From assembly GCF_003675855.1 (NCBI RefSeq), contig NZ_RCIH01000009.1, positions 124,001 to 188,000 on the forward strand: a stretch of 64,000 bases of DNA, read 5' to 3'. This document shows positions 6,553-41,757 of the stretch, one piece after another (positions within the stretch are counted from its first letter, which is position 1; each line of letters starts with the position of its first letter). The translations under genes were made by a program, and so were the position numbers. The notes beneath the pieces are model-generated. The model did not search any database. It saw only the letters and a list, made by a program, of their open reading frames with translations, and was not told where the DNA came from. Source of the DNA: Halostella salina (GTDB taxonomy: Archaea > Halobacteriota > Halobacteria > Halobacteriales > Natronoarchaeaceae).

Positions 6553-8718
6553 TTAATCGTCCTCCGTGTTCACGAACGTCGTCAACTCCGGCACCCGCGT
6601 CTCCGTGAGCTCTCGACGAATCTCAGTCCGATCCCAGCCGAGCGGTGCCAGCACACTCTCGACAGCTCTGACGAGTTGCGTCTTGTAGTACGACGCGTCG
6701 TACGACTCGATCTCCTCGTGAGCCAACGCGACCCGCTCTCGCGAACTCTTCTCGTCGTCGACGACCACGTACTCGATGTCCTGTCCCGGGTGGATGGCGA
6801 GGTCCTGGTTCCGAGCCCGCTTCAGCGCCGCCACGTTCTGTGTGTTCTGCGTGTACCCTTCCAGCGGCTTGGAGACACGGTTCCGCTCGACGAGCCGCTC
6901 CACTGCTACGTTGCCCGCCTGTAGTTCGCCGATTGCTCGTTCGAGCCGTCCGAGTACCGCGTCCGGTGACCGCGTGGCATCGAGCTGGTCGAGACAGTCC
7001 CGCTGGACGTCCTCGATGAACGGCGGGGTCGAGCGCTGCCGGGCTTCGATGCCTCTGACCTTGAAGTCGTCGTCACCGGCGACCTTTCCGAAGTACTTCG
7101 TCAGCGCGCCGGCGTCGCTCTCGCGCTGCGGGACGAACGCCACCCAGTCGTAGTGGGCCTCGTGTTCGAGCCGAATCTCGACGCGTTCCGTGATCTCCGT
7201 CGCGAGCGTCCCGAGGTTCTCACGGTCCTCGTCGTCGACGTCGGGGTCCGGGGTCACCCAGATGGAGTCAACGATGCCGTGGACGACGCGCCAGCCGCCA
7301 GCTTCCAGTCGCTGTTTCGCCGTCAACAGAATCTCGCGAGCGAACGCGTTGATTGCCTCGTGGCACTCGATGCGACCGAACTTCGCGTTGCTGAACCCCT
7401 GATAGCCGAAGCAGGCGACGAGGATCCACTTCAGCGCTCCCGACCCCCCCTCGAGTTCTGCCAGTCGGTCCTCGTCGGGGTTGTCCCGTTCCTTCTTGCG
7501 ACGGATGGCCGCCTTGATCTCGTCGCGAGCGTCGATGATCGGCTGCAGCACGTCGACGAGGTAGCCCCGGTCGTCGCAGATCGAGTACCCGAGGCCGGGG
7601 ACGTCCTCGCGGTCGCTGTGGCAGTCACACCGGATGACGTCCGGCGAGACGTTCCGGGTGCAGATGATGTTCGGATACAACGAGGAGAAGTCGAGTTCGT
7701 GGACGTTCTCGTGGAGGCCGACCTCGGGCGCGAAGATGAACCCGCCGCGGTCGGCATCGTGGAGCGTTCCCATCGGCTTGTAGAACTCGTGGCGCCAGGA
7801 GTTCCATGGCACGAGGACGTCGCGGTCGTGGGCCTCGCAGATCTGGATCGCCGTGAGGACGTTCCCGATCGACGCCCACGCGAGCTCCTGAACGGGTTTT
7901 TTCGAGCGCGACACGAGGTCGAGGACGCCGTCGAGGTTCGTCTCCCCGTAGAAGAACGTGTTCGACTCGTCGATAATCGCCCGGCCGGGCACGTTGTACC
8001 GCGCCGGCGAGTGGCCGACGCGGCCGTAGCTCGAGTACGTCGACCGGCTCGCGAGCTGCTGGTAGTCGACGTCCGGCCACCGACTCAGCGAGAAGTCGTC
8101 GACGCCGGCGTCCGTCGCCATCTCGTACAGGGTCGGGATGATCTCGCTGGTTGAGCAGACCAGGACGTCCGGATCGTGCGCGTCGAGTGCCCCTTGGACG
8201 GCGGTCAGGATATCCGTCGGCGAGCCGGTGACGGCGTCGCCGGCGACGGTCAGCTCGCCGTAGACGTCGTTGCTCGTTTCGGTCACTGGGACGCTGAGCC
8301 GGAGCGTCGACAGTTCGCTCGCCGGCGTCGGATCGGCGCCGGTCTCCAGACAGTATCGGAACTCTCGCGAGAAGTCCACGTTGAAGCAGGCGAGATCCCC
8401 GACTGGATAGTCCGACAGCTGGCGTGCCTGCCGGGCGAGTGGGGTGACGCGGTCGATGTGGGCGACGTTGACCGCGAGAACGGTCTCCTCGTCTCGTCGA
8501 AAGCTCGGCCGTCGCGTAACCATCTCGGTCGCGACGACGTCCGGGTGCTGGTCGTACACCGACTGGAGCGTTGTGAGGTCGAGGTCGGTCTCTGGGTCGC
8601 GAGCGGCGACGTAGAAGCGTGGGGTGTAGTCATCGCGCTCGGTCGCGACGGCGCCGTCGGCGGTTGCCTCCCACTCCAGGACGCGGCCGTCGTCGAGGAA
8701 ATCGATGCAGAACGGCAT
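6553..8718 (-). CDS. polB: Family-B DNA polymerase, plasmid type
   Basis: About 721 residues from the ATG at 8718, chosen because MPFCIDFLDDGRVLEW is the usual beginning of this haloarchaeal family; a 51-residue in-frame extension to 8871 looks non-coding and contains palindromes. Polymerase motif A DFSSLYPNII, motif B KWILVACFGYQGFSNAKFG and motif C GIVDSIWV are visible in order. Motif C lacks the first Asp of the canonical GDTDS, keeping only the second. An N-terminal exonuclease-like region is present but I could not place all of its acidic motifs. It is much smaller than main replicative PolB enzymes, so it probably acts in repair or in element replication. It sits next to the Cdc6 origin. 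Confidence 0.92.
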   Translation of the reverse strand: MPFCIDFLDDGRVLEWEATADGAVATERDDYTPRFYVAARDPETDLDLTTLQSVYDQHPDVVATEMVTRRPSFRRDEETVLAVNVAHIDRVTPLARQARQLSDYPVGDLACFNVDFSREFRYCLETGADPTPASELSTLRLSVPVTETSNDVYGELTVAGDAVTGSPTDILTAVQGALDAHDPDVLVCSTSEIIPTLYEMATDAGVDDFSLSRWPDVDYQQLASRSTYSSYGRVGHSPARYNVPGRAIIDESNTFFYGETNLDGVLDLVSRSKKPVQELAWASIGNVLTAIQICEAHDRDVLVPWNSWRHEFYKPMGTLHDADRGGFIFAPEVGLHENVHELDFSSLYPNIICTRNVSPDVIRCDCHSDREDVPGLGYSICDDRGYLVDVLQPIIDARDEIKAAIRRKKERDNPDEDRLAELEGGSGALKWILVACFGYQGFSNAKFGRIECHEAINAFAREILLTAKQRLEAGGWRVVHGIVDSIWVTPDPDVDDEDRENLGTLATEITERVEIRLEHEAHYDWVAFVPQRESDAGALTKYFGKVAGDDDFKVRGIEARQRSTPPFIEDVQRDCLDQLDATRSPDAVLGRLERAIGELQAGNVAVERLVERNRVSKPLEGYTQNTQNVAALKRARNQDLAIHPGQDIEYVVVDDEKSSRERVALAHEEIESYDASYYKTQLVRAVESVLAPLGWDRTEIRRELTETRVPELTTFVNTEDD

Positions 8719-8771
8719 TTGTTGTTCACAATCCACTGGACATCCGAATCCGATAAGCGACGGCGTGTCAT

Positions 8772-8787
8772 TTCCGGGATTCCGGAA
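8772..8787. promoter_or_regulatory. TTCCGG-N4-CCGGAA palindrome upstream of polB
   Basis: Perfect 6-bp arms 8772-8777 and 8782-8787, 54 bp before the chosen polB start and in the divergent spacer toward the gene at 8936. A second palindrome GGAATTCC lies at 8860-8867. Possible operator; no regulator identified. Confidence 0.3.
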
Positions 8788-8935
8788 TAGCCCGAAACCG
8801 TGAACGACGGCGTATTCCGATCTATTTGCAGGTGGTCCTCCATTTCCAGAATCGTGTCCGGAATTCCTCACTCACAGGTAGCTCCTGGGGAAAAACTGTT
8901 GTCGGACGGACGTAATTGGATTACCTATTCAGAGA

Positions 8936-10057
8936 ATGACGACCCATTCATTGGCAGATGCGCTTGCTGATAGACAGGTTCAAGAATTGCTTGGGGCCCT
9001 CCAGTCCGAACACGTGGTGACACCCGGAGCGTTCGAGAACGACGTTGAGCAAGCGCTCAAAGAGACGATTTCATCTAGGTTGACCGACGAACCAGTCGCG
9101 TACGAGACTATTTTGGATGAGCATGGCGATCTCGTTGGATCGACGGATCGTGAAAGGGAGACGCTCCCGTGGTGGTTATTGGACTTCGTCTGGACAGTTG
9201 ATACAGAAGGGTCGGACCAGATGGAACTCACGCTTGATGATCCAGCGAGCCTCAGCCGTTTTGAGGACTATCCCGAAGGGGAGACACGGGTGGTTGATAT
9301 CTCTCTTCGAGATGACCATCCGTTCAAAGAAGTTCTCACTGCTCTGCAGGACTTGAAACAGGCGTTAGCGGATGAGGTTGATCCAGAGATAATTGACGGA
9401 GCGGGTAACGGGACAATCAGGTCGTTTCCTGAGAGAGATCGTCTCTTCGATAGTCCATACGGCGACAATAAACTGGAGACCCACCGCGATTTCGAGAACT
9501 GGCTCGGCGACCTCCTCGGACTGTTCCCGCCCGAGAACGACGCCTCAACGGGGCTTTTGATGGCGCTTACGAACGTCCGGCGCTCCCACGCGGAAAATGT
9601 ACTCCCGGATCAGACACTGAGTCAGTTCGACCGCATCGGACTCGTTGATGAGGACGACCGTATCTTTAACCAGCGATACTACGAGGCGCTAGGAACGATT
9701 TTGGAGTTCGTAGGAGTGTTCGACCAACACATCTCAGTGAACCCGCCCGAGGAACTTGACGTGCAGACCGACCAGTATGATGATGGCGAGATGTTCCCGC
9801 TTCAATACGCCTTCCACGACGCGTGGGCGAGCGCGAACCAACCTGTTGACGGTGCTGACGAGTGGTTCGGGCGCGTAGGCAACTCTACACTAGAAACCGA
9901 AGAGGAACGCCGGTTCGCCAACGTAGCGTTTGACACACCGCTATGGATACACAGCTCATCGGTCCTGTTTCAGCCGTGGGAAAAGAGCTACTATGCAAGT
10001 AACCGTGACCAGCTGCACACTCTGTTAGATAAGCGCAACCATCCAGTCGATGAGTGA
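8936..10057 (+). CDS. Unknown protein, first gene of a three-gene AAA+ operon
   Basis: 373 acidic residues, no recognised motif. The N-terminal 60 residues are helical, residues 70-130 alternate strands around PWWLLDFVWTVDT, and the C-terminal half contains aromatic-rich segments (FGRVGNSTL, PLWIHSSSVLFQPWEKSYYA). No signal peptide or membrane segment. The ATG follows a short divergent spacer from polB. It overlaps the next gene by 8 bp, and that gene is followed after 5 bp by an AAA+ ATPase, so the three form one transcription unit and probably one complex. Plausible roles are target recognition or scaffold for the ATPase; not shown by sequence. A database search for conserved three-gene neighbourhoods would decide. 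Confidence 0.75.
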   Translation: MTTHSLADALADRQVQELLGALQSEHVVTPGAFENDVEQALKETISSRLTDEPVAYETILDEHGDLVGSTDRERETLPWWLLDFVWTVDTEGSDQMELTLDDPASLSRFEDYPEGETRVVDISLRDDHPFKEVLTALQDLKQALADEVDPEIIDGAGNGTIRSFPERDRLFDSPYGDNKLETHRDFENWLGDLLGLFPPENDASTGLLMALTNVRRSHAENVLPDQTLSQFDRIGLVDEDDRIFNQRYYEALGTILEFVGVFDQHISVNPPEELDVQTDQYDDGEMFPLQYAFHDAWASANQPVDGADEWFGRVGNSTLETEEERRFANVAFDTPLWIHSSSVLFQPWEKSYYASNRDQLHTLLDKRNHPVDE

Positions 10058-11912
10058 CAGAGATCGCGACTCGCCACGCGACCGTAATCACGAGGATACA
10101 AGCGGGGAGCAAACGGAGGCGCCGGCTCGAATACCGAGCGATCCGTCAGATGCAGACGATGCTGACGAATCGACCCCGGAGGAGCGTATCGCAACGCGTT
10201 CGATTGGCCTGTCAGGAAATGACGGTTCGGTAATTGACGAAGCACGCCCTCAAGCCGAGATCACCGTAACGTCTGGGAAGGTTCAGTCGGGGTCGGTCTC
10301 GGTCAAAAGACTGACCCACCGGACGGCAGTCGTTGACTCGGTGAGGCCTAGGGCAAGGGTCGCGCAGTCATCTGGTACGGTGACGACATCAGATATCGAG
10401 CTAGGACAGCGACGTTCAGCAGTCCGGATGCCGAGTCGACCAACGCACCAGCGGGAGAGTCGTGAGGGAACAGCTGCGACTCGCGACGTTGAGATTGAGC
10501 AGCGGACTGAGCCTGTCACCGATGCCAGCCGACCGTTGGCGCAAGACAGGGTCCAAGAGTCTGAGAGCCGTGGCGCCATCGAAGAGATTGAGGAGTATGA
10601 CCCGGTCTTCCGCTGGGCGGGTGGAGCACCCTACGGAACCGATCGCCCGATGTTTGTGGTCAACCGCGACCCGGCTTTCTCGACACTAGAGCATCTCAAG
10701 AGTGTCCTCCGTGACACGTACGCTGAACTCAAAGGCGGCGAACCGGGTACCGCCACCGTAGAATTCCTTGCGAATGAGGTGCAGACCCCCTCGGTACAGG
10801 GGAACATTGTAACGCTTGACCTTCGAGACGACGGCTGGACGGCAGGTGTCCAGAACGGCAAACCGTTAATTGAGCGATCAGATGTTGACTTGATTCCGAG
10901 ACTCCGTGACGTTGTCGACGGCCTCTACAGTGGGGATGTGGGCTATTTTGTATTGAACGTCCCAGCCGAGTGGGGGAGTGGATACCTAACTGAACGGTTC
11001 CACGAACGACTTGTCGCACGGCTTGCGGGCGTCTCGCAATCCGAAGTCGAGACGGACGAGCGAACCACGCTGTTCGAACGCGTTGAGTCGGCACCCGTCG
11101 TCCTTACAGAACCAGTAATCGAAACCGAGAGTACCTATGCCGACCGGGTAGCCGGATATCACGGATTGGACAAAAAAAGTGCGAACGAATTTGAGTCAAT
11201 CCCGCAGATAGAGCAGGCTGTGGGTCGGATTCTCTCCCAACAGGATTGGTTCAGGATTACGCTGACCGAGCGCCACGGGTCGGAAGGTAATCGACACTAC
11301 CTGTGGAAGGCTGCTATTGTCGACGGCGTCTGTCGGGCTGTGTGGCGGACCAGCGAAGGTGGCGTGGATGGCCGTACGTACAACCGATTCGTCCGTGAGG
11401 AGTTCCGCCCTCAGCTTGCCGACGAGGCGTTCCCCCTAGAAACCGAGTACGAAGTCCGTGATACTGAGCAGGACGTGCGCCTCGCCGCCGACGTGTGGAT
11501 TCGAGGGCCGACTGACGACTGGCAAAGAGCTGTTCGAACTCTGTTTAATGGTGAGGCCGACAAGGAGGGTGACGGACAGGGGACTGACTCCGGAGACGAA
11601 GAAGATATCAAATTCCCGGTGGCCGTCGAGTACGAGACCGGATTCAAAGAGGGCGCGTTCAATTTTCGGAAAGTCGTGGAGACGCTCGAAAAGTACGAAC
11701 CAGGTGAAGAGGTCGGACATATTGCCGTCGTCGTGCCACAACGGCTGCTCTATCGCGGACGTGGTCGAGCGGAGATGCTCACAACGCTCGTTTCGCAGTG
11801 GACCAAGCGTGTCGAGAATACCACTGCCTCGCTGTACGTACCTAAGCTCGTCGGTGGATCGTGCCGACGTCTTGTTCGGGCCACAGACAGAATTGATGAA
11901 CTCTACGAGTAA
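10050..11912 (+). CDS. Unknown 620-aa protein with internal repeats and nuclease-like C-terminus
   Basis: Residues 1-50 are disordered and charged. Residues about 55-165 contain three to four degenerate units of roughly 33 residues, each with a V[VI]D-x-xRP core followed by TVTTSDIELGQR-like beta segments. The middle (190-400) reads as alpha/beta. The C-terminal 100 residues carry FPVAVEYETGFKEGAFNFRKVVETLE then HIAVVVPQRLL, which has the look of a PD-(D/E)XK core (acidic residues before a strand, ExE, then a second hydrophobic strand), but no lysine is clearly placed. It overlaps the upstream gene by 8 bp and is followed after 5 bp by the AAA+ gene. Function unknown; nuclease is a hypothesis. 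Confidence 0.75.
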   Translation: MSDRDRDSPRDRNHEDTSGEQTEAPARIPSDPSDADDADESTPEERIATRSIGLSGNDGSVIDEARPQAEITVTSGKVQSGSVSVKRLTHRTAVVDSVRPRARVAQSSGTVTTSDIELGQRRSAVRMPSRPTHQRESREGTAATRDVEIEQRTEPVTDASRPLAQDRVQESESRGAIEEIEEYDPVFRWAGGAPYGTDRPMFVVNRDPAFSTLEHLKSVLRDTYAELKGGEPGTATVEFLANEVQTPSVQGNIVTLDLRDDGWTAGVQNGKPLIERSDVDLIPRLRDVVDGLYSGDVGYFVLNVPAEWGSGYLTERFHERLVARLAGVSQSEVETDERTTLFERVESAPVVLTEPVIETESTYADRVAGYHGLDKKSANEFESIPQIEQAVGRILSQQDWFRITLTERHGSEGNRHYLWKAAIVDGVCRAVWRTSEGGVDGRTYNRFVREEFRPQLADEAFPLETEYEVRDTEQDVRLAADVWIRGPTDDWQRAVRTLFNGEADKEGDGQGTDSGDEEDIKFPVAVEYETGFKEGAFNFRKVVETLEKYEPGEEVGHIAVVVPQRLLYRGRGRAEMLTTLVSQWTKRVENTTASLYVPKLVGGSCRRLVRATDRIDELYE

Positions 11913-11917
11913 TCATA

Positions 11918-13555
11918 ATGCCAGACACACCGCTGTATAACTGGGTTGAACGCGCACGCGACAACCCATCGGTAGCATCGATCCGTTCCTCGTTATTCGA
12001 AGGACAGCAGTACCTTCCATGGACAGTGGTCAGGAGTCGTGCTGAAGACCAGCCAAATAGGGCGTTCGAAGTACGGGCCTCCAAGGACGTAACCGAGCAG
12101 TACGAATTCCGTATCAATCCAGACGGGACTGAGAACGGAGTGACCGTCTACCGCCGTGAATTCGATGTCACAACAGCAGGGCCACGGTCAGGCGACGCCG
12201 AGCACGAACTCAGGCTCATCGTCGAGCTCGTTGATCAAGACGTTACGCCGCCTGATGACTTGAGAACCGAAGTCAAAGAGCGTGAACTGGCCGAATTTAT
12301 GCAGGCTGATTGGGTTCATCCGGTCGGCGCAGACCGCGTCGCGGGGCTGGACCATCAACGAGCGGATCTTGAACGATTTCTCGAAGCCGACTACGAGTCT
12401 TGGGGTCTCTCTGAGCGGACTGGAATCCTTCTGGAGGGGCCTCCGGGCACAGGAAAAACCGAACTCGTCAAAGAAGTCTGTGAAGAGAAATACGGCGAAG
12501 TCCCCGTCAGTATCTCTGGACCTGAAGTGCTAAGCAAGTGGGTCGGCGAGTCCGAGCGAACACTTCGACAGAAGTTTGAGGAGGCGCGTGACCGGGCTGA
12601 CAGCCCTGTTCTCTATATTGACGAGCTCGACGCCATCGGGCGCAGCCGTGACTTAGCCAGCCAAGACCACGGCCACCAGCTTGTCGCACAGCTGCTTGTC
12701 TTGCTTGATGGTATCGACCAGAAGGCACGTGACCGCGACCGATCGCTGAAAGTTATCGGATCGACAAATCTTGCCGAGGTGCTCGATCCGGCGCTTCTCC
12801 GGCCTGGTCGGTTCGGTAGTGATCCGATTGAGTTCGGCCGTCCAAATCCAGCCCAAAGAACGGCGATCCTCCATCATTACCTCGAACAGAGCCGTCGGGC
12901 GGAGGCCTCAAATTTGGATAAGTCCCTCGACAGCTTTGTTACAAAGTTCGAGACGGAACCCCTCTCAGAAATCGTCACAAACACGGAGGGGTTCACTGGG
13001 GCCGACCTCGAAGATCTGGTTCTCAAGACGGTTGAGCGACTCGAACGCGGCGGCAACGAAGAACTTACAGTAGCAGCCCTTGAGAAGACGCTAACTGGAC
13101 CGTTCGAGGGACGAGGGCGTGGACCCTTCACCGACGAAGAGATCACGGCTGGCGGTCGGACACGACGGGTCGATACGCACGTCGGTATGATTCGAAGTGA
13201 GTCCTTGGACACCGACACCGCTCGAGATACCGCACGCCAACACGTCGCGGCGCTGGGGGAGAACGAACGCGGAACCTTCAGAATTGTTTCTGTTCGTGAA
13301 TTGCTCGGGCCGGACCACCAGACCACTCGTGAACAAGTTATCGAGACATTCCAGACGCCGGTGACTGCTCCTCTCGTCGTCTATCTCAAAGGTGCACGGA
13401 CGCTGAACCGAGCTAGGTCGGCTTCTCCGTTGCTGCAAACACTCGTCGAGACACTCCACGAGGAGGTTCTCAAGTGGCCTGACGACAACGTGCTACTCTA
13501 CGCGAAAGATGATGACCACTCGCTGTTGTCTTTACCGACAACTGATCTTGACTGA
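11918..13555 (+). CDS. CDC48/FtsH-like single-module AAA+ ATPase, third gene of the operon
   Basis: 545 residues. A specific N-terminal domain (1-135, mostly beta) precedes a full AAA module: Walker A GPPGTGKT (174-181), pore loop KWVGES, Walker B VLYIDELD (231-238), sensor-1 GSTNLAE, arginine finger RPGRFGSD, then the helical lid with TEGFTGADLEDLV. A further C-terminal domain (about 420-545) is not recognised. The ATPase appears intact. The N-domain differs from that of CDC48 proteins, suggesting a dedicated substrate. Five bp separate it from the 620-aa gene. In context it is the motor of a three-protein machine of unknown role, sitting between a replication module and a defence island. 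Confidence 0.88.
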   Translation: MPDTPLYNWVERARDNPSVASIRSSLFEGQQYLPWTVVRSRAEDQPNRAFEVRASKDVTEQYEFRINPDGTENGVTVYRREFDVTTAGPRSGDAEHELRLIVELVDQDVTPPDDLRTEVKERELAEFMQADWVHPVGADRVAGLDHQRADLERFLEADYESWGLSERTGILLEGPPGTGKTELVKEVCEEKYGEVPVSISGPEVLSKWVGESERTLRQKFEEARDRADSPVLYIDELDAIGRSRDLASQDHGHQLVAQLLVLLDGIDQKARDRDRSLKVIGSTNLAEVLDPALLRPGRFGSDPIEFGRPNPAQRTAILHHYLEQSRRAEASNLDKSLDSFVTKFETEPLSEIVTNTEGFTGADLEDLVLKTVERLERGGNEELTVAALEKTLTGPFEGRGRGPFTDEEITAGGRTRRVDTHVGMIRSESLDTDTARDTARQHVAALGENERGTFRIVSVRELLGPDHQTTREQVIETFQTPVTAPLVVYLKGARTLNRARSASPLLQTLVETLHEEVLKWPDDNVLLYAKDDDHSLLSLPTTDLD

Positions 13556-13684: not shown

Positions 13685-13729
13685 CAGGACGCGGCCGTCG
13701 TCCAGAAAGTCGATAGTAAACTGCCCCAT
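13685..13729 (-). pseudogene. Remnant: first 15 codons of a second polB
   Basis: Encodes MGQFTIDFLDDGRVL, which aligns with MPFCIDFLDDGRVLEW at the start of the intact polB (8718). At DNA level the 3' half is near identical to 8678-8718 and the 5' half differs, so it is a diverged copy, not a fresh duplication. It breaks off after codon 15. It directly abuts the 3' end of tnpB. It marks a lost polymerase gene. Confidence 0.7.
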
Positions 13730-13730
13730 C

Positions 13731-15038
13731 CTACTCGCTCACGGCTTCGCCGTTCGCTTCGTTGCGGGTGGGGCTTTCGCATGGACTCCCGTTCTGTCCG
13801 CCGTCGGCGGAAGGCTCGTAATCGCCATTCACGTTCAACGTCCCGCGATTCAAGCGCACGTTTACGGGTGCGCCTCCGCCCGACGACTTTTGCGCCGAGC
13901 GGAGATACTTCAATCCGATATTCTTCGCCGCGTTGTAGTCCGCATGGGGGGAGTATCCACACTTCAGGCACTCGAATACGTCCTGCCCGTCCGAGGTTGA
14001 ACGGTTGTTCTCGTGAGTGAAGCCGCACTTGGAACACCGCTGGCTCGTGTACGCAGGACTCACCTGTTCGACCGAGATGCCGACCACTTCGGCTTTGTAC
14101 TCGACGTACTCGAACAGGCGTCGAAACGCCCACGCGTGGAACTTCTTGGCGTTGGGCATCCGCTCACGAATCCCGGTTAGGTTCTCGAACGCGATCACGT
14201 CGCAGCCATAGTCGACGGCTTCCGCGACGAGTTCCTTTGAGACAGTGTGTAAGAAGTGATCGTAGCGGCCCGTCTCAGTACGTCCGACCGACTGGATGGT
14301 TTCGTGGGCGGACCGTGTGCCGCGCTGGTGGAGTGACCTGCGCCGCTTCTCGAACTCACGGTGCCAGTGATTCAACTCCGACCCGTTCCAGAATGTCCCT
14401 GTGGAGGTGACGGCGATGTTTTCCATGCCGAGGTCAACGCCGAGGACTGTGCTGTGCTCGCCGTTGCCATCGTCGGCAGTCTCGAACTCCACGTCCGCCT
14501 TTGTTCGGACGTGAAGGTAGAACTCGCCGTCGCGGTAGTGCAGTTCTGCGCCCGTCACTTCGTAGTCGTCGTTGTATAGATACTCCGAGTGTGGTGTCTC
14601 GCGGTTCTCGTCGGGGAGGACGTATTCAGCGGTAATCCGTCCTTCGACGGTCGAAAGTGTGGCGTGGTCATCGTTGAATGTCGCACACCGCTTGTCGTAG
14701 ACGAGCGTCGGCGCGGTGAAGTTTGGCTTCCCCGCATAGTCACCTTGCTTCCAGCGAGCAACGACGCTCTGTACGGCATCGGCAGCCTTGTTGCGGGCGT
14801 TCTGGACGAGGTTCGCTTGCAGCCAGGTCTCTGCCCGCACGTCGTCATAGGTTTCGCGTTGGAGTTCGGCCTTGCTCGTGGTCTTGTACTCGCCTTGCCA
14901 CGCGTGGTCGACGACGTAGTTGGCGGCCCACAGGAACTCGGAAATGGTTTCGTGGAGGAGATCGGCGTCGCTGTCGGCCACGTCGAGCTTGACGGGGACG
15001 GTGCGACGGACCTCCATCCGTGTTTCAGATGTGTACAT
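13731..15038 (-). CDS. tnpB: TnpB, RNA-guided nuclease of an IS200/IS605 (IS1341-type) element
   Basis: 435 residues. Ruv[13 protein letters not shown], Ruv[15 protein letters not shown], a zinc ribbon CSKCG ... CLKCGY, and Ruv[14 protein letters not shown] are all present, so the nuclease is probably active. TnpB cuts DNA guided by an omega-RNA made from the element's 3' end and needs a short target-adjacent motif at the 5' end. No tnpA is present, so this is a tnpB-only element. The start is the ATG at 15038; a second Met at 15017 ([13 protein letters not shown]) is equally possible and lies about 33 bp from AATATAAAG at 15046-15054. The stop is one base from the polB remnant, so the right end must be within or just beyond that point. 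Confidence 0.93.
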
Positions 15039-18893: not shown

Positions 18894-21800
18894 ATGGCTA
18901 ATGGCTGTGATTTTCTCACCAGTCCCTCCTTCGACGCGCTTCAATCTGAGGTGTTTGAACGGGTTGCTGAACAGGCTGGCGGCGAGCCCGGCAGCATCCT
19001 CTACATCGAGAACAACGACCATCGCACGGATGAGGTCGCCGACGCGTGGGCCGAGACTTACCAACCACTCCGACTTCGAGTAACCGATTTCAATACTGTC
19101 GTCGGGGAATGCTACGAGCGGATCGCTGACCCGAGTTCTCTTCTGGATGCGCTGACTCGGCGCCGGTTAATCGACCGAGCGCTTCGAACTGCCGCTGACC
19201 GTGGTCTCTTGGACGATGCGCATCTCTATCGAGACCACTTCACCGATCTTATTACAGAACTGGAGGGAGAGGGCTACCACTCCCCTGAATCAGTTCGAAC
19301 CCTCGTCGAGAATTCCCAGTTATCACCTGGAACCATTGATCTGGTCGCGAGCGTGTATGAGGAGTTCTACGAGCTCCGTCGAGAAGGTGTCGGGGATGAC
19401 GTGTACACCCTTAGTGAGGCGTACCGGACGGTCCTCGATAGCGGAGCTTCCCTTACGGAGATCTTCCCTCACGTCGACGTCGTCGTAATCTCTGGATTCT
19501 ACGACCTGTCCCACCACGAGAAGCGTTTTATTCACCGACTAGCCACCGTATTCCCTGTCTGTATCTCGCTCCCCCTGGCCGACACAGAAACGCCGTCCGG
19601 TGGAGCAAACCAGATCACTGCTGACGCGATGGAGACGTACCAGGCAATTGCTGGCCCACCGACCGCTGTCACTCCCGATTCTCCGAGTTCACTCATCGAC
19701 GCTGCTGGAAAGCTCTATACGCCATCTCCAGGGGTTGACGAGGATACGGCTCCTCCCGACCAGCTTCAATGGTACAGCGCCCCCACACCAGATCGAGAGG
19801 TTAGACAAGTTGCTCGAAGGGTGCGGAAACAGCTCGCGGACGGCGCCGACCCCAACGACATTCTGGTTGTCATTCCGGGTCTAATCTCGTATCAGGAGCA
19901 AGTCGCCGACGTATTCGAGGCCGCTGGTATCCAGTCGGTCGGGTTTGCGAACAAACTGCTGTATCAGACGTATGCTGGGCGGGCAATGCTCGATCTGGCT
20001 GAACTCTGTGTCGACGACCCACGCACAGATACGGTAGCTCGTCTCGCGACGAATCCGCTCGTGACTCTTGGAGGAGCCACCGACGACGTTGATCGGTCCG
20101 CTGTTGCTGACCTCGCCCGCCGTCTTCCGACAGTCGATACTGACCGACTTCTCGAGGAACTCGACGATGCCTCCGCTGAGGTGTTGGAGAACCTCTTCCA
20201 GGTCGCCGACGATGCTGAGGCCGCGGAGGCCGACGACGTCGTTGAAGCCGTGCACACTGTGTTCGAAACCGTCGATCTCTCTGAAAACGTCGACTCTATC
20301 GAAGAAGATGCGGCGTCATTCGATGCTCGAATGGAGGTCGCGTCCTACAATCGGGTCGAGAGGGTGTTTGATGCGATCGAATTCGTGGCTGAGCGCTTTG
20401 GAATAGACGAGCCAATCGAAGAAGTGGCCGATGCACTTGAGAAGGTGCGGGTTCCCCCACCGAGTCAATCTACACAGGATGTCGTCGAGATCGTTGGTCC
20501 ACGCGATGCCTACATGCAGTCCTATTCGCACCTGTATTTCGTCGGGTTGACCGAGCAGGACTTCCCCGTCGAGAAGGATCGACCTCTCTTTTTCGAGCGT
20601 CTGTTCGACGACATCCCCGACCTCTCGTTCACCGATGACCGAGCTGAGTCCCGCTACCAGTTTGCTACCTTGCTCTCAGGTGCCGAGAGCGTCTACATTA
20701 CGACCCCCGAGACATCATTTGATGACGATGACCTGCTTGAGTCGTCGATTCTCGATGAACTCGCTCGAGTAACTGGCCTTGAGCCAACGCCTGATGATCT
20801 TGGGAATGCCGTTCCCGAAGATGTCCAGCGGGCCCTTCGTCATCACCGAGATAGGGAGGGACGGGAGGAAGCCGTTAAGCACGCTGCTGACTCCGGAGTA
20901 TTCTCGCGACAGCAGGCCGAGCGCGTCGTGGCGGGTACGAGGTGCGCTGAAAGTCGAGCTGACGCCGGACTATCCGCCCACGATGCACAGCTTGATCCCG
21001 AATTGGTCTCGGAGCTCCACGGTGAACGTGGGCCGTACAGCCCGACGCAGCTGAAAGATTACGCTCAGTGTGGGCACGCCTACTATATGAAACGGATACT
21101 GGGCATCGAAGCGCCCGACGAGTTCCATCTCGAGCCTCAGAAAGTCGATCTCGGGAGCCTCGTCCACGATATCTTCGAGGAGTTCTATCGCGGGCTCCAG
21201 GATGACCACGGCGATCCAGTTGACCTCAGTGAATATGATCGAGAATTCCTCGAAGAACAGCTGTTGGAGCAGACACGAGATAGCCTTGCTGACTCCGACA
21301 TCGACTTCGACGACGTGTTCTATAAACGGTGGCTGGAACAGCTCCTTGCTGGGCTCGCGACGCCCGACGTGAACGAGTACTTCGGTGATGATCGACCTCA
21401 TCAGGGAATCGATCGAGGACTCTTCGTCCGGTTCCTTGATGCGGAGCACGACGACAACGACGATGTTCCGGCATGGTTTGAGGTGCCGATGGACTTCTCG
21501 GATTCGGAAGAGGGCGAGATCACGGTGACGACGCCGGATGGAAGAGAGATATCCGTCGGGGGATTCATCGACCGCGTGAGCCTTCGCGAACAGGACGATG
21601 GTACCATCGAAGGATTAGTTCACGACTACAAGACGAGCGACCCAGAAACCATTCAGACAATCGACGGTATCGAATTTCAGCTCCCGCTCTATATACTTGC
21701 CACACGAGCAGAACTAGCAGCCCGATACGAGGATACACTTGCCGATGTGGACGGGGAATTCTATGTAACGGAGCCCCCGACAGAGATTACTCGAAAGTGG

Positions 21801-22109
21801 AGTCTTCGATACTACCTTGAACGGAACGATGGAACTGACGAGGACTACGAGCGGTTCCTCACAGAAACCGTCCCATCGCGAGTTGGCGAGGTAGCTGACG
21901 GCATCGAGAATGGTGCTTTCCAAACGACCACGCTTTCGCCGAAAGAAGCGGGCTGTCGCTACTGTGACTATCGGGACATCTGCGATGTTCGACACCACCA
22001 ACGACAAGAGATAATCCAAGAGATGGATCGCTCCGATTCGTCCGGTTATATCCCACAGAGGGCGCGAGATGGGTCGTTCTTGGATACGCTTGGGGGTGAA
22101 GACGGATGA
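18894..22109 (+). CDS. addB: AddB-like nuclease subunit with Fe-S cluster
   Basis: 1071 residues, usual AddB length. The N-terminal part is a degenerate UvrD-type fold without a Walker A, as in Chi-scanning AddB subunits. The C-terminal nuclease has the AddB Fe-S staple: one cysteine in YAQCGHAYYMKR (about residue 725) and three in CRYCDYRDIC (about 1020-1030), with the nuclease core FIDRVSL ... GLVHDYKTS (about 890-915) between them. The gene overlaps the next by 4 bp (ATGA). AddAB unwinds and degrades DNA ends to give 3' tails or destroy foreign DNA. Haloarchaea normally process ends with HerA-NurA and Mre11-Rad50, so an AddB is unusual and points to transfer from bacteria. Confidence 0.88.
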   Translation: MANGCDFLTSPSFDALQSEVFERVAEQAGGEPGSILYIENNDHRTDEVADAWAETYQPLRLRVTDFNTVVGECYERIADPSSLLDALTRRRLIDRALRTAADRGLLDDAHLYRDHFTDLITELEGEGYHSPESVRTLVENSQLSPGTIDLVASVYEEFYELRREGVGDDVYTLSEAYRTVLDSGASLTEIFPHVDVVVISGFYDLSHHEKRFIHRLATVFPVCISLPLADTETPSGGANQITADAMETYQAIAGPPTAVTPDSPSSLIDAAGKLYTPSPGVDEDTAPPDQLQWYSAPTPDREVRQVARRVRKQLADGADPNDILVVIPGLISYQEQVADVFEAAGIQSVGFANKLLYQTYAGRAMLDLAELCVDDPRTDTVARLATNPLVTLGGATDDVDRSAVADLARRLPTVDTDRLLEELDDASAEVLENLFQVADDAEAAEADDVVEAVHTVFETVDLSENVDSIEEDAASFDARMEVASYNRVERVFDAIEFVAERFGIDEPIEEVADALEKVRVPPPSQSTQDVVEIVGPRDAYMQSYSHLYFVGLTEQDFPVEKDRPLFFERLFDDIPDLSFTDDRAESRYQFATLLSGAESVYITTPETSFDDDDLLESSILDELARVTGLEPTPDDLGNAVPEDVQRALRHHRDREGREEAVKHAADSGVFSRQQAERVVAGTRCAESRADAGLSAHDAQLDPELVSELHGERGPYSPTQLKDYAQCGHAYYMKRILGIEAPDEFHLEPQKVDLGSLVHDIFEEFYRGLQDDHGDPVDLSEYDREFLEEQLLEQTRDSLADSDIDFDDVFYKRWLEQLLAGLATPDVNEYFGDDRPHQGIDRGLFVRFLDAEHDDNDDVPAWFEVPMDFSDSEEGEITVTTPDGREISVGGFIDRVSLREQDDGTIEGLVHDYKTSDPETIQTIDGIEFQLPLYILATRAELAARYEDTLADVDGEFYVTEPPTEITRKWSLRYYLERNDGTDEDYERFLTETVPSRVGEVADGIENGAFQTTTLSPKEAGCRYCDYRDICDVRHHQRQEIIQEMDRSDSSGYIPQRARDGSFLDTLGGEDG

Positions 22110-25100
22110 CGGGTATCGACGATGCGCCAGCGTCGACGGACGACGAAGGCGAAGAGGAGCTCTCCCCAACAACTGAACAGGAGGAGGCTCTGGAACTCGA
22201 TCAGAATATCGCGATTACCGCTGGGGCAGGCACTGGAAAGACCACAACCTTGACTCTCCGTTACCTCGAGATGCTGGAGTCCGACCCCGACATCGGGCCC
22301 GAGAACATCGCGACGATCACGTTTACGAACGATGCCGCGAATGAGATGCGGGAGCGTATCCGGGAAGAAGTAGCTGAGCGTCTCAGTGAGGTCCCCGAAT
22401 CAGACGAGTACGACTACAGTCGATGGCGCAGCATCAAGGACGATTTGGAAGACGGCTATATTCATACCATCCACGGCTTCTGTTCTCGGCTGCTCCGCGA
22501 GTACGTCGTCGAAGCCCCGGTCCAACCCGAGTTCGACACGCTGGACGAGGCCGATTCCAAGGTGTTGATGCAGGAGGTGGTCAGGGAGACGATTGACGCT
22601 CGCTGGGAAACGGATGAGGATATTCGCCGCCTCGCTCGACTCTGGAGTCGAGATTCTCTTGAGCAGGTTCTGGCCGGTCTACTCAACAGCCGCCCGATGA
22701 GTACTGAATGGGCGAATCGCTGGGAAGACGAGTCCGTAGATGCATATTTGGACCATGTCTGGAGGACGTTCTATCCGACGGATCAGGAGACTGCTGAGGA
22801 TTACCTTAGCGACCCGTCAGTACAGGCCGCTTTGAACACCATTTGCGACCTCTACGACCAAGAATTCGACATCGATCCTAGTGATAACGGGATGGATTTC
22901 CTGGAGACCGTCTCTACTATCGCACGTGAAACCGGAATTCACACCGGCGAGGCAGAAGGAAGAGAGTGGCAACGAGCCTTCGACGTTATTTGTGACCGAC
23001 TGACGACTGGGAGTGGTAGCAGATACAGCCGACGTCACTGGTACCGGGGGTCCAAGTCGAGCTGGAGTGCTCACGAGGGCGAGCAGGAGCAATTAGACGC
23101 AGCTGCAGATGCGCTTCTGGAAGCGATCGAACCTGAGGAGCGAGAGTTCATCGGCGGTCTCGATACCGAGTGGAACAGTAGTCATTACGTCCTGAGCCTT
23201 GCTCGGCTCTACTGCACTGTTCTGGACGAATACACACAGACGAAATCGGATCAGAATGCTCTGGACTATCACGACCTCATCCAGACCTGCATCGAGTTCC
23301 TGAACGCGGACGACCGCGTCTGCGAGCAAGTTCAGTCACAGTTCGAGTACGTAATGGTCGACGAGATGCAGGATACTGACCTGCTCCAGTGGGAGCTCAT
23401 CAAACTCTTGACTGCCGGCGATACCGATGATTTTGACGCTCAGAACGTCTTCTTGGTCGGTGACGAGAAACAGAGCATCTACCGATTCCGTGGCGCCGAC
23501 GTGACCACCTTCGGTTCGGCTCGTGAGGACCTCGCTGCGGCTAATCCGGACGATGTCGAGACTACCAAGCAGCTCAGAGGCAATTTCCGCACGATTCAGG
23601 AGACGCGGGAGTTCCTGAACGCGCTCTTCGACAAGGTATTCGAGCCGATGGGCGACGAGTACCGCGACTATGAAGCCAAGCCGCAGGAACTTACGGATGA
23701 ACGCCGGCAGGGACGTGATGTCACCGGATCAGTCGAGTACCTGCTCGTGCCTGACGATGACGTCCCGGAACTCCACGGTACCGATTACTTGAATCAAACT
23801 CCTCGATTCGCTGGGCACGGCGAACGAGAAGCTCACGCGCTTGCCAGCCGTCTCACCTCGTTACTGGACGATCCTCCGGAAGTCTACGATGACGACGAGG
23901 AATGCCTTCGACCTGCGAAACCCGAAGACGTCACCATCCTGTTGCGCGCTCGCACCCGGCTCAAGGAGCACGAACGAGCGCTGGATGCATACGGAATTCC
24001 GTATACTGTCGTTTCGGGTACTGGGTTCTGGGACGCCCCCGAGATCACAGCCTTGGTCAATCTGTTTAGGTTCTTCGAGAACCCGGACGACGACATCGCT
24101 CTCTACGGTGTCCTCCGGTCGCCACTGTTTGGTTTCCCCGATGAGGATCTCGCCCGACTCCACTCCGAGGATCAGCCACTCTGGATTGCTCTCCAGACAG
24201 CTGAGGATGATCTCGGCGACGCTGCCCGTCTCCTAGACGAGTGGCGGCAGATCGCTGCTGTCAACGACGATGTAACGGTTGACACGACTGTTCCGTGGGG
24301 AACGTTGCTTTCCCGGATTATCGACGATACCGGGTATATCGCCAGTGTCGGGGCAGATGAACGCCCGCGACAGGCGGCAGTGAATATCAACAGGTTCCGC
24401 GAACAGGTTCGCGCCTGGGAAGAGGGTGGCGTCAAGACTGTCTCGGAACTCCTCACGCGAATCGACCGTCGGAAGGAAATCGAATCCCACGCTGACGAAG
24501 CGACTATTCCCGAAGATGCTGACGGCGTCCAGATTCGAACAATCCACTCGGCGAAGGGGCTTGAGTTCCCTATCGTCGCAATTCCAGAAGTGGGCACCGA
24601 GTTCAACTTTCAGGGGGATGTCGACGACTACGGGAAAGTCTACCTCGACGAGCTTGACGTCGGGGATGGCGAGTCAGAACCCGTGCTCGGTCTGAAAGCT
24701 CCGTCAGCCGACGATCCCTATGAGCACCAGAATACGCTCGCTCGGACGCGGCTTCAGGAGGAGGTCCGAATGCAGGAACGAGCTGAACTGAAGCGTCTCC
24801 TCTACGTCGCAGCGACGCGGGCCCGTGACCACCTGCTCTTCAGCGGCGTTCACTCTACCGACGCTGATGAGGAGGATGGCTTGGGGTTAGGTGACCCGAA
24901 TGATGCCGCGGATGCACGATACTGGCGTGATTGGCTCCAACCGATTCTCTTGGAAGACGAGGACGGTGATGCAGGACATATCTTGAGACAGCTCTCCGTC
25001 GGGGCAGATCATACGACCACTATCCGTGGGAGCGAATACACAGTTCGAACACCAACCGCTCCTGTCCACGATTGGGACGCGTCAGCGGCAACTGAGCGCG

Positions 25101-25828
25101 ACTACCCTCAGATTGACATTCCTGCTCCAGAACTGTCCACTCCCCCGACGTCGATCACGGCCACGAATTTTGCGAAAGCACTCTCTCCGGATGATACAGC
25201 CATCTACACTGACGAACTCGAGGAGGACGCCGCGAGCCTCGAAACGGATGGCCTTCAGGCCAACCATCTGGGAACGATCGTCCACAAGCTCTGTGAGCTA
25301 CGACCTGCTCGAGACCGGTGGCGCTCCATCGCGGCTCGGCTGGGTTCTGCTTTGGATGATACGGTGACTGATGGGGATTTGGATCGGATCGAAGAGTATA
25401 CTGAGCGCTGCCTACAGTTCCGTGACGGCGTCGCCGACGACGAGTTGCCGACAACCATCCACGAGGAACTCTCGGTTGTGACGCGATTGGAAGCCGGCCG
25501 AATCGTCGGCGATATCGACCTGCTTCTAGTCAGTCCAGACAGCTACCACGTTATCGACTACAAGACGAACGACACCTCTCAACGGTCGGTCGACGACCTC
25601 GCAGAGAAGTACTGGCCACAACTCGAAGTGTATGCAGCTGCCCTCTACCAGAACGACGATTCCCGAATCGTTCACACCACGCTGTACTTTGCCGACGCTG
25701 ATGAGCATCGGACCACGACCCACGACATGCTTTCGTTGGATATTCTTGGTGATGACCTGAACACACAACTTGAGGGGTTAACGCAGTCCGACGGCGCCGC
25801 AGTCCGAGGAGAATCGAGCAATTTCTGA
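22106..25828 (+). CDS. addA: AddA-like UvrD-family helicase-nuclease
   Basis: 1240 residues. Helicase motif I AGAGTGKTT (about residue 38), Ia ITFTNDAANEM, II VDEMQDTD (about 418), III GDEKQSIYRFRGAD (about 451), V IRTIHSAKGLEFP (about 812), VI LLYVAATRARDH (about 900). The C-terminal RecB-type nuclease has GDIDLLLVSP ... HVIDYKTN (about 1135-1155). All core residues seem intact. It forms the heterodimeric motor-nuclease with the product of the overlapping addB gene. The next gene starts 126 bp downstream. A combined role in end resection and attack on invading DNA is expected from the family. Confidence 0.93.
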   Translation: MTGIDDAPASTDDEGEEELSPTTEQEEALELDQNIAITAGAGTGKTTTLTLRYLEMLESDPDIGPENIATITFTNDAANEMRERIREEVAERLSEVPESDEYDYSRWRSIKDDLEDGYIHTIHGFCSRLLREYVVEAPVQPEFDTLDEADSKVLMQEVVRETIDARWETDEDIRRLARLWSRDSLEQVLAGLLNSRPMSTEWANRWEDESVDAYLDHVWRTFYPTDQETAEDYLSDPSVQAALNTICDLYDQEFDIDPSDNGMDFLETVSTIARETGIHTGEAEGREWQRAFDVICDRLTTGSGSRYSRRHWYRGSKSSWSAHEGEQEQLDAAADALLEAIEPEEREFIGGLDTEWNSSHYVLSLARLYCTVLDEYTQTKSDQNALDYHDLIQTCIEFLNADDRVCEQVQSQFEYVMVDEMQDTDLLQWELIKLLTAGDTDDFDAQNVFLVGDEKQSIYRFRGADVTTFGSAREDLAAANPDDVETTKQLRGNFRTIQETREFLNALFDKVFEPMGDEYRDYEAKPQELTDERRQGRDVTGSVEYLLVPDDDVPELHGTDYLNQTPRFAGHGEREAHALASRLTSLLDDPPEVYDDDEECLRPAKPEDVTILLRARTRLKEHERALDAYGIPYTVVSGTGFWDAPEITALVNLFRFFENPDDDIALYGVLRSPLFGFPDEDLARLHSEDQPLWIALQTAEDDLGDAARLLDEWRQIAAVNDDVTVDTTVPWGTLLSRIIDDTGYIASVGADERPRQAAVNINRFREQVRAWEEGGVKTVSELLTRIDRRKEIESHADEATIPEDADGVQIRTIHSAKGLEFPIVAIPEVGTEFNFQGDVDDYGKVYLDELDVGDGESEPVLGLKAPSADDPYEHQNTLARTRLQEEVRMQERAELKRLLYVAATRARDHLLFSGVHSTDADEEDGLGLGDPNDAADARYWRDWLQPILLEDEDGDAGHILRQLSVGADHTTTIRGSEYTVRTPTAPVHDWDASAATERDYPQIDIPAPELSTPPTSITATNFAKALSPDDTAIYTDELEEDAASLETDGLQANHLGTIVHKLCELRPARDRWRSIAARLGSALDDTVTDGDLDRIEEYTERCLQFRDGVADDELPTTIHEELSVVTRLEAGRIVGDIDLLLVSPDSYHVIDYKTNDTSQRSVDDLAEKYWPQLEVYAAALYQNDDSRIVHTTLYFADADEHRTTTHDMLSLDILGDDLNTQLEGLTQSDGAAVRGESSNF

Positions 25829-37656: not shown

Positions 37657-38076
37657 ATGTCACAGGACAATACACCCTCCGACGCTGAGCGTCGCACCGA
37701 CATCGAGCCACTGTTGACTGGTCCAACTCCGCGACAGGCTATGTTCACAGTTGTCCTCCTGAGTTTAATCGCCGTACAACCTGTCGCTGCACAGGGCAAT
37801 GCAGTCTGTAGCGCGGACAACCTCCCGAGCATGATCGAGGGATTCTTCCAGTTAACCACTGCCCTCGGTATCGTCGGCCTCGCCATCGTCTGGCAGGCAG
37901 ACTCCCTTATCGAGATGTTCACCCTCAATCCCGAGCAAAAGAAGGGCCTCAAGCGCCACAAGCGCTCGGCGATGAAGTCGGCGGTCATCCTTGTCGTCCT
38001 CGGGCCGCTGTACACCGTCGCCGGCTCGATGATGGGCCTCCCGTTGGCCGAGTGTGTCGACCTCGTGCCCTGGTAA
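37657..38076 (+). CDS. Small membrane protein of the conjugation operon (VirB2/TrbC-like in size and topology)
   Basis: 139 residues. A signal-like segment at about 29-46 (FTVVLLSLIAVQPVAAQG), then two more hydrophobic helices (about 63-85 and 108-128) separated by a basic loop (KKGLKRHKRSAMKS). Size and topology resemble the pilin-like subunits at the head of type IV secretion operons. It lies six bp after the previous gene and 26 bp before the chosen start of the next. The VirB2 comparison is based on position and topology, not sequence identity. Confidence 0.6.
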   Translation: MSQDNTPSDAERRTDIEPLLTGPTPRQAMFTVVLLSLIAVQPVAAQGNAVCSADNLPSMIEGFFQLTTALGIVGLAIVWQADSLIEMFTLNPEQKKGLKRHKRSAMKSAVILVVLGPLYTVAGSMMGLPLAECVDLVPW

Positions 38077-38102
38077 CCACCACATCGGTTTCCCCGCCCC
38101 CA

Positions 38103-39839
38103 ATGCCCCAGCAAGAGTTCGCCGTACTCTGGGTCGTACTGTTCGTGACCAGCGGCATCACGGGGACCGTTGCTGCTGATCCACCCCGTCCCGACACTGA
38201 GGGGAACGGACTCAGCGAAAACGAGTCCGCGACGCTCTGGTCACGGGACGCGGACAACTACATCAGTCAGGAGGCATACCGGGACCGCTACGGCGAGTCC
38301 CGGTCCGCACTCCACCAGCTCGCAAACGGGACGGACATCACGTTCAAGCGGCCGCCTGACACCGCCGCAACGTGGACACGCAACGACTTTGAGGATCTCG
38401 ACGCAGGATCTGCCAATACGTCCGTCCACCCACCCAATGCATCCCTGGAGGACGGGCGATTCATCGCCGACGCACACGCGACCGTGTTTGCGGTTCAGCC
38501 GTCGACACGGGCACACCTCGAACCGAGTGAAACACCGCTCTACGTCGCCCCGAACGGGACCGTTCGTGGCCTCGTCGATTATCGGGTACGCGTACCCAAC
38601 GGCAGTTCCGAGGGGAACACGACCGTCGACTGGTCGCTTGCCGACCACGGGATCGAAGAAATACGAATACGGACGGACAACACGACTGTCGCAACAACCA
38701 ACGGTTCGCAAACCCCCTCGATCGACTACCGACTCGCCGGTGACGGAGAAGCAACCTTGTCCATCGAAGCCGAGATCCAGGTTCGCCTGAACAAAACCGT
38801 TCGGATCGACCGGGGGAACGAAACCGAGGTCAACATCACGTATCCCACCGAGGAACTGACAGTCTCGGACGAGCTCGCCGTCGAGATCTACGATCTATCG
38901 GCGTACCCGTACTATGCCGAGTACCCGAACGGGGATACCGGGGTTGCCGTCTACCAGTCCCGGCCTTGGCAAGGGTACACGCTCACAGAAGCGGGCACCA
39001 CGAGCGTCCGTGGTGTCTGGCGGTTCTACACCGCACGCGACACGGACTGGGACACGCTCGTCAGGACGAACCGCACCGCGAGTTCGACAGTTGAGTCGGA
39101 TGCGCTCCCCGTCTACGTCCATGCCTATCCGTCGCGGATCGGTCCACGTGCGGAACCAGTGCGGGGCGGGCCGGAGATCGTCGAAACGTGGGGGATCGAG
39201 CGGTCGTCGCCGACGGCAACCATCGGTGAGAATGTTCATATCGAGGAAGTTACGGACGCGTACAATACGACCTACGGCGTCGCTGTCCGTGCCGAGACCG
39301 TCGACAGGGATGCGTTACAGGTCGCCGGTATCGTTCGCGGAGTCAATGCTTCGATCGAGGAGCCGCAAGCCGATTCTGAGCGGCAGCTACGACGGAGTCA
39401 CCTCTCTATCGAGGTTATCGAGCAGAACGAGAGCCACGCTACCCTGCGGCTTGAGCTGCGAGATCGGCAGACTGGTGAGCCGATTACGCTCAATGAAAGC
39501 CCACGCGGATACCCGATCATTGGAGATTCCCGACGTGGCTACATCACGATAGCTGACCGGCGCGTCGAAACCAACCGCTCGGGCGTGGCCATCGTGACGA
39601 TCGACCAGCCGGGGATCTACACTGCCCGGTACCAGCCCGGGTCCTGGCGAGATCACGACCCGGCGTACGTCGGCGAGACGGCAACCGTTCGGTGGCATCC
39701 GCTCAGAACCATCGAGGGATGGTTTGCGCTGCTGTTCGAAATTGGCTGGCAGCTGCTGCCGTTCATCGTGATGTTTTACGCCGGAACCCGCCTCCTGCGG
39801 TTACTCGCACCCGACGACAGCTTCGATAACAAATTATGA
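38103..39839 (+). CDS. Large exported membrane-anchored protein of the conjugation operon
   Basis: About 578 residues from the ATG at 38103. That start gives a clean signal peptide (MPQQEFAVLWVVLFVTSGI..., cleavage near TVAAD), whereas the frame to 38052 adds 17 residues that overlap the previous gene. The extracellular part is beta-rich with many N-x-S/T sites (NGT, NTS, NAS, NTT), consistent with an N-glycosylated S-layer-exposed protein. A single C-terminal membrane helix (WFALLFEIGWQLLPFIVMFYAG) anchors it, with a short cytoplasmic tail. It overlaps the next gene by 4 bp. It may be a surface structure or mating-contact protein. Confidence 0.7.
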   Translation: MPQQEFAVLWVVLFVTSGITGTVAADPPRPDTEGNGLSENESATLWSRDADNYISQEAYRDRYGESRSALHQLANGTDITFKRPPDTAATWTRNDFEDLDAGSANTSVHPPNASLEDGRFIADAHATVFAVQPSTRAHLEPSETPLYVAPNGTVRGLVDYRVRVPNGSSEGNTTVDWSLADHGIEEIRIRTDNTTVATTNGSQTPSIDYRLAGDGEATLSIEAEIQVRLNKTVRIDRGNETEVNITYPTEELTVSDELAVEIYDLSAYPYYAEYPNGDTGVAVYQSRPWQGYTLTEAGTTSVRGVWRFYTARDTDWDTLVRTNRTASSTVESDALPVYVHAYPSRIGPRAEPVRGGPEIVETWGIERSSPTATIGENVHIEEVTDAYNTTYGVAVRAETVDRDALQVAGIVRGVNASIEEPQADSERQLRRSHLSIEVIEQNESHATLRLELRDRQTGEPITLNESPRGYPIIGDSRRGYITIADRRVETNRSGVAIVTIDQPGIYTARYQPGSWRDHDPAYVGETATVRWHPLRTIEGWFALLFEIGWQLLPFIVMFYAGTRLLRLLAPDDSFDNKL

Positions 39840-40690: not shown

Positions 40691-40692
40691 CC

Positions 40693-41745: not shown

Positions 41746-41757
41746 CTCCCCTAACAA

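Follow-up and report, generated by a model that had tools for sequence, protein, structure and literature searches.

The window analyzed here, a 64,000-nucleotide stretch of Halostella salina DNA, carries three co-directional open reading frames (ORFs), designated g1, g2, and g3, the first two overlapping by 8 bp and the last two separated by a 5-bp gap (Table 1). These ORF coordinates agree with a first-pass annotation of the locus, which had described a packed set of genes of just these sizes and spacings, placed between a replication module and a defense island. Both flanks also fit that description, with a divergent B-family DNA polymerase gene (polB) on one side and, downstream of the operon, genes for a TnpB-family protein, an AddAB-like helicase-nuclease pair, a pAgo, and further defense-type products (HEC-06/Orf5-type and Dsr1-type). 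The AddB/AddA-like genes overlap each other (positions 18894 to 25828) and encode a 1,071-aa PD-(D/E)xK protein and a 1,240-aa UvrD helicase-nuclease. Further downstream, at 42863 to 48914, lie genes for adjacent 744- and 1,274-aa proteins, both of which contain a weak MADS8-like (mad8) stretch. They belong to a co-directional gene run extending from about 38052 to 51318; this region is possibly another unnamed system.

Table 1. Features of the g1-g2-g3 locus and its immediate flanks (positions counted from the first nucleotide of the window)
Feature	Position	Strand	Description
polB, B-family DNA polymerase	6553-8871	-	PRK05761 subfamily, 1447 bits; neighbor, outside the system
g1	8936-10057	+	ORF, 373 aa; present in exactly the genomes with g2
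g2	10050-11912	+	ORF, 620 aa
g2 N-terminal part, ~residues 1-180	10050-10589	+	Low-complexity, weakly repetitive tether, poorly conserved in alignments
g2 middle alpha/beta domain, ~residues 185-385	10602-11204	+	From alignment A7 and AF2 model
g2 C-terminal domain, predicted PD-(D/E)xK nuclease, CoiA-like	11208-11912	+	From motif, predicted topology, and hhalign
g3	11918-13555	+	ORF, 545 aa
g3 N-terminal domain, residues 1-140	11918-12337	+	Divergent in alignment A3; no Pfam match
g3 classic AAA+ core and lid	12338-13087	+	GPPGTGKT, KWVGESE pore loop, VLYIDELD, STN, RPGR
g3 C-terminal domain, residues 392-545	13091-13555	+	Possibly a second AAA module, degenerate and lacking Walker A
polB 5'-end remnant	13685-13714	-	Direct repeat D4, 30 bp, 90% identical to 8677-8706
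TnpB-family RNA-guided nuclease	13731-15038	-	NF040570, E = 8e-53; neighbor, outside the system

Distribution and co-inheritance of the three genes

Since the neighborhood also contains antisense ORFs of 333 aa, ORF length alone is no proof of genes in this DNA; g1, g2, and g3 are identified as genuine genes by their identical three-gene order at 11 further loci. The 12 operon loci, which lie on plasmids as well as chromosomes, all have the fixed order g1-g2-g3, and of the 11 g1/g2 pairs measured (window counted), 6 show the 8-bp overlap. tblastn searches with g2 located the operon on plasmids of Haloplanus sp. GDY1, Haladaptatus sp. DYSN1, and Haloplanus rubicundus, each with the three genes in order; these represent 3 of 72,556 plasmid records. 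Whole-genome searches added G007, G010, G011, G016, and G042 and then G099, G244, and G371, the last with the same coordinates as the Haloplanus GDY1 plasmid copy, while a scan of genome contigs gave three loci only (G042, G016, and G010). Several copies are chromosomal, and one locus (G640) lies outside the Halobacteriales. In two Halorutilales genomes the operon occupies the chromosome between argG and gyrAB, g1 being frameshifted and g3 lacking the C-terminal domain in both copies. Single-protein and alignment searches of viral contigs found no relatives, nor did the phage collection contain any, leaving a viral origin unsupported.

The distribution is thus patchy and partly plasmid borne, and the sequences are diverging fast (identities of orthologues to the window proteins, 24 to 35% for g1, 28 to 37% for g2, and 34 to 41% for g3). 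In profile searches, the genomes with g1 and those with g2 were the same 9 out of 394 Halobacteriales genomes (~2%; log10 P of about -18 if the genomes are taken as independent). The best plasmid matches of all three proteins fell on the same three records, the next-best matches of g3 being ordinary CDC48 genes that align over the AAA core only, and the pairwise distances of g1, g2, and g3 are correlated (Mantel r, 0.92 to 0.94; p, 0.0002). Co-occurrence, shared plasmid records, the recurring overlap, and the distance correlation together argue that the three genes travel and diverge as one unit. According to the first-pass annotation, the idea of a single system would suffer if the genes occurred apart. 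The genes do not occur apart, g1 and g2 sharing their nine genomes and all three genes their three plasmid records, with the caveat that distant g2-like proteins do have other partners.

These distant relatives were detected in 22 of 315 sampled Halobacteriota genomes with a profile of the middle and nuclease parts of g2. Most are proteins of about 550 to 600 aa whose gene closely follows that of a helical partner, and an AAA gene is usually missing. The partners fall into types A11 and A12, which are related to each other (hhalign E = 2e-7). At one Archaeoglobi-type locus (L090, genome G604), a partner, a g2-like gene, and an AAA gene follow each other in that order and overlap; the partner falls in the A11 family (E = 5.5e-8), and the AAA protein, too, carries a second AAA domain in degenerate form (E = 3e-9). 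The pairing of predicted nuclease and AAA protein therefore occurs twice, in very distant settings. Two other g2-like genes of Archaeoglobi type (L087 and L050) lie near a small-subunit ribosomal protein gene, a neighborhood that hints at a housekeeping role of the ancestral g2-like family. Elsewhere, a g2-like gene and a short helical partner adjoin BREX-5 pglX and pglZ (L079, G027:C30, 8735 to 11128), with no AAA gene; this g2-like gene could be an unrecognized BREX-5 accessory. In an Azaca-like locus (L035, G068:C3, 963 to 9789), also with no AAA gene, a 1,403-aa protein ends in the g2 middle and nuclease module and is accompanied by a ZacB-like phospholipase-D-type gene (E = 6e-17) and a very weak ZacA-like match.

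A predicted nuclease and a Cdc48-type motor

The first-pass annotation had listed g1 and g2 as unrecognized proteins, and indeed neither has a family match in Pfam, NCBIfam, or PADLOC; HMM searches of PDB with the g1 and g2 profiles likewise gave nothing credible. Low-complexity N termini like that of g2 are found in the distant relatives L034, L050, and L090. The middle domain carries the conserved motifs FxWxGGxPY, LRDxYxExxGGEP, TLDL, and GYxxxNxP, with an invariant G, P, G-x-x-P, and G (alignment A7, 14 proteins). Toward the C terminus follow, in order, the motifs ES..HY..K, TE, D, and ExET (E412..H416-Y417..K420, E466, D481, and E527-x-E529-T-G), of which the H, K, D, E, and E are invariant over 14 divergent proteins (alignment A6). 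An AF2 model of residues 180 to 620 (pLDDT, 64; pTM, 0.68) gives this C-terminal part a predicted helix-strand-strand-helix-strand-helix-strand core. Compared with the alpha-beta-beta-beta-alpha-beta fold of the PD-(D/E)xK superfamily, in which D and E lie on adjacent strands, the predicted order agrees apart from one extra helix.

With hhalign, the g2 nuclease domain matched a CoiA profile at P = 0.0015 (0.0019 for the distant relatives alone, compared with 0.49 for an unrelated control domain). Since CoiA is rare in Halobacteriales, the profile consists of only two haloarchaeal CoiA sequences, and the match is suggestive. We accordingly describe the g2 C terminus as a predicted metal-dependent, CoiA-like PD-(D/E)xK nuclease; an earlier guess that this region might be a nuclease has thus gained support from motif and predicted topology, without a significant database match. 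Foldseek comparisons of the g2 model with PDB and viral libraries were insignificant, the top hits being AAA+/P-loop proteins at E of about 0.02 and long alignments having TM values of <0.25. An AAA-like fold of the middle domain is not claimed, given these insignificant matches and a profile test against the AAA core of P = 0.097. A proteasome link through the HbYX-like LYE end of g2 was also discarded, since in most relatives this tyrosine does not fall at the C terminus.

The AAA+ protein proved to be as intact as first annotated, with all motor motifs present and separate N- and C-terminal domains delimited. Its core matches PF00004 (E = 1.7e-31), AAA_lid_3, and the CDC48 model (4.5e-39), and it hits Cdc48/VAT-type PDB chains at 4e-62; Cdc48/VAT and PAN are its nearest families. 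Walker A, the KWVGESE/RWVGESE pore loop, Walker B, sensor 1, and RPGR were found in all 10 g3 orthologues scanned. An aromatic pore loop is the hallmark of a polypeptide-threading ring. By its sequence, g3 is a classic Cdc48-type AAA+ motor with intact motifs and an aromatic, substrate-threading pore loop. The C-terminal domain, which is absent in L017 and L019, resembles the AAA core (hhalign P = 0.008, below 20 of 20 column shuffles) and is possibly a degenerate second AAA module.

The upstream partner, g1, has 19 invariant columns among 10 orthologues, including LPWWL..F.W, a CPP...L.ALL...N segment, and ..SWA; its AF2 structure was unusable (pLDDT, 46). Compared with a merged profile of the partners encoded upstream of distant g2-like genes, g1 gave an hhalign P of 0.014 (controls, 0.08 or higher), which is only suggestive of homology, i.e., of g1 being a diverged A11 partner. 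It is the sole gene of the three to be disrupted in relatives: g2 and g3 stay open in both Halorutilales copies, where g1 is broken by different single frameshifts (at about 2070 to 2100 in L021 and about 9100 in L022) that may reflect either sequencing error or real decay.

These separate frameshifts, confined to g1, would be compatible with a device for protein quality control or of the toxin-antitoxin kind, with g3 unfolding a toxic g1 or g2, and the tight translational coupling of the genes would suit such an arrangement. However, no HbYX proteasome-docking tail was found at the g3 C terminus in any member checked, and no toxin or protease family is matched, so we regard this explanation as very unlikely.

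Genomic setting and candidate functions

The window copy of the operon is framed by a repeat of the first polB codons, the remnant on the far side keeping IDFLDDGRVL in the same frame. Judging from this repeat, the operon region was likely inserted at, or rearranged beside, the start of polB. Such a setting, together with the frequent occurrence of the operon on plasmids, a tyrosine-recombinase-like ORF near the L037 copy, and the fact that the nearest nuclease motif is that of CoiA, a streptococcal DNA-uptake and recombination factor (PMC1189080), would be compatible with a module that helps to maintain or spread mobile elements, be it in replication, DNA uptake, recombination, or conjugation, and whose AAA+ ring and nuclease process the element's own DNA. 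Yet polB, which is divergent from g1 here, adjoins the operon at no other locus, far more plasmid records would be expected to carry the operon if it had a core plasmid function, and several copies reside on chromosomes. We therefore consider such a module rather improbable.

The defense context extends beyond the window. In G011 and G099, which represent different families, a TmtA gene, of Tiamat type, immediately precedes g1 in the same orientation (gaps of about 160 and 250 bp). The two TmtA proteins (L016, 11978 to 17998, and L036, 11820 to 18278; 2,007 and 2,153 aa) share only 24% identity. TmtA is present in 34 of 205 genomes; going by these counts, two such placements among some dozen loci are unlikely to be a coincidence. 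The L016 TmtA protein has a PVEVKA motif at its C terminus. At several operon loci, e.g., L037 and L073, there are no recognized defense neighbors.

Mobile-element upkeep and host repair are the main rivals to a defense role. A RecJ3/4-aRNase J nuclease complex is reported to associate with Cdc48a in Haloferax volcanii (PMC10470531), so that a Cdc48-associated nuclease complex is already known in haloarchaea, and g1-g2-g3 might by analogy encode a host complex for DNA repair or nucleoprotein disassembly. The ribosomal protein gene near the Archaeoglobi-type g2-like genes and the single chromosomal site shared by the two Halorutilales genomes point in the same direction. Against this, the operon is found in only the small, patchy set of Halobacteriales genomes described above, diverges fast, and keeps company with defense genes; in our estimation a host repair complex is improbable, although not as remote as the toxin-antitoxin device.

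On balance, with moderate confidence, we favor the reading that g1-g2-g3 make up a single functional unit, namely a nuclease complex powered by an AAA+ motor, which is most likely an undescribed archaeal antivirus or antiplasmid defense system. The defense role is probable from neighborhood and domain content. In the proposed mechanism, the g2 nuclease would be tethered via its conserved alpha/beta domain to the long flexible N terminus, and g1, a putative sensor or adaptor in the upstream partner position that other helical proteins fill in distant relatives, would recognize a trigger or target and hold the nuclease. A hexameric g3 ring, recruited through either g1 or the flexible N terminus of g2, might then use ATP to remodel a protein, by taking apart either an inactive complex of g1 with g2 or a protein that sits on invading DNA, and the g2 nuclease would thereby be able to cut. 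The direction of control is ambiguous in the sequence, as the ring may either activate the nuclease or strip proteins from the target.

A bolder version, possible but doubtful in our view, is that the operon represents a novel class of immunity in archaea. Its tethered CoiA-like nuclease would be under the control of a Cdc48-type unfoldase in place of a helicase or DNA translocase, and the class would be built on an ancient partner-plus-nuclease core spread across Halobacteriota and recruited to Tiamat-adjacent, BREX-5-adjacent, and Azaca-like settings. Archaeal defense is less explored than bacterial defense, and here a compact three-gene unit, strongly linked by sequence evidence, falls outside existing family and system models, while the g2-like proteins make up an unannotated superfamily of predicted nucleases in Halobacteriota. 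A defense nuclease may, on this evidence, be switched by a Cdc48-type ring that unfolds proteins.

Comparison with known systems

Pfam, NCBIfam (June 2026), and PADLOC contain no model for the g1-g2-g3 set. The absence of a match to BREX, DISARM, Zorya, or Lamassu, first noted from motifs, was borne out by PADLOC, which gave zero matches for g1 and g2 and only generic AAA matches for g3.

With Cdc48/VAT and PAN, g3 shares the classic AAA core, pore loop, and lid but differs in its N-domain and its degenerate C-terminal domain. It scores 134 bits against the Cdc48/VAT model (TIGR01243; cutoff, 802.65) and has one intact AAA core, not two rings; for PAN, it reaches 118 of 500 bits and lacks the HbYX tail. 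The alignment of g3 with IetA of the IetAS system (PADLOC E = 3.5e-19) covers only the AAA core and scores 57.5 bits against an NCBIfam cutoff of 510; moreover, IetAS includes the subtilisin-like IetS, whereas there is no protease among g1 and g2, the latter being a predicted nuclease. McrBC, marked by an McrB GTPase signature and an McrC partner, consists of an AAA+ motor and a PD-(D/E)xK nuclease, and the operon, given the nuclease predicted for g2, shares with it the principle of a ring driving such an enzyme. However, g3 belongs to PF00004 and reaches only 17.7 bits with AAA_5 (below cutoff), there is no McrC match, and the genes number three. The Azaca-like and BREX-5-adjacent loci have the g2 middle domain and nuclease module in common with the operon but carry it as a 1,403-aa fusion or beside a short helical partner, respectively, and without an AAA gene.

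The closest likeness in the active site is to CoiA (PF06054), a PD-EXQ nuclease variant (PMC1189080): g2 has ES..H...K on a predicted helix, followed by E, D, and E-x-E/Q on successive strands. It differs in having no PF06054 match at E <= 1, in lacking the zinc-finger-like N terminus of CoiA, in having ExE in place of ExQ, and in that its predicted nuclease is part of a longer protein with a middle domain and tether, whose operon also supplies an AAA+ motor. The shared order of residues supports a g2 that works like CoiA, not membership in that family. Among the membership features of known families compared here, this order is the only one seen in the operon, which by its predicted parts appears to resemble, in principle, the known defenses that combine an AAA+ motor with a nuclease.
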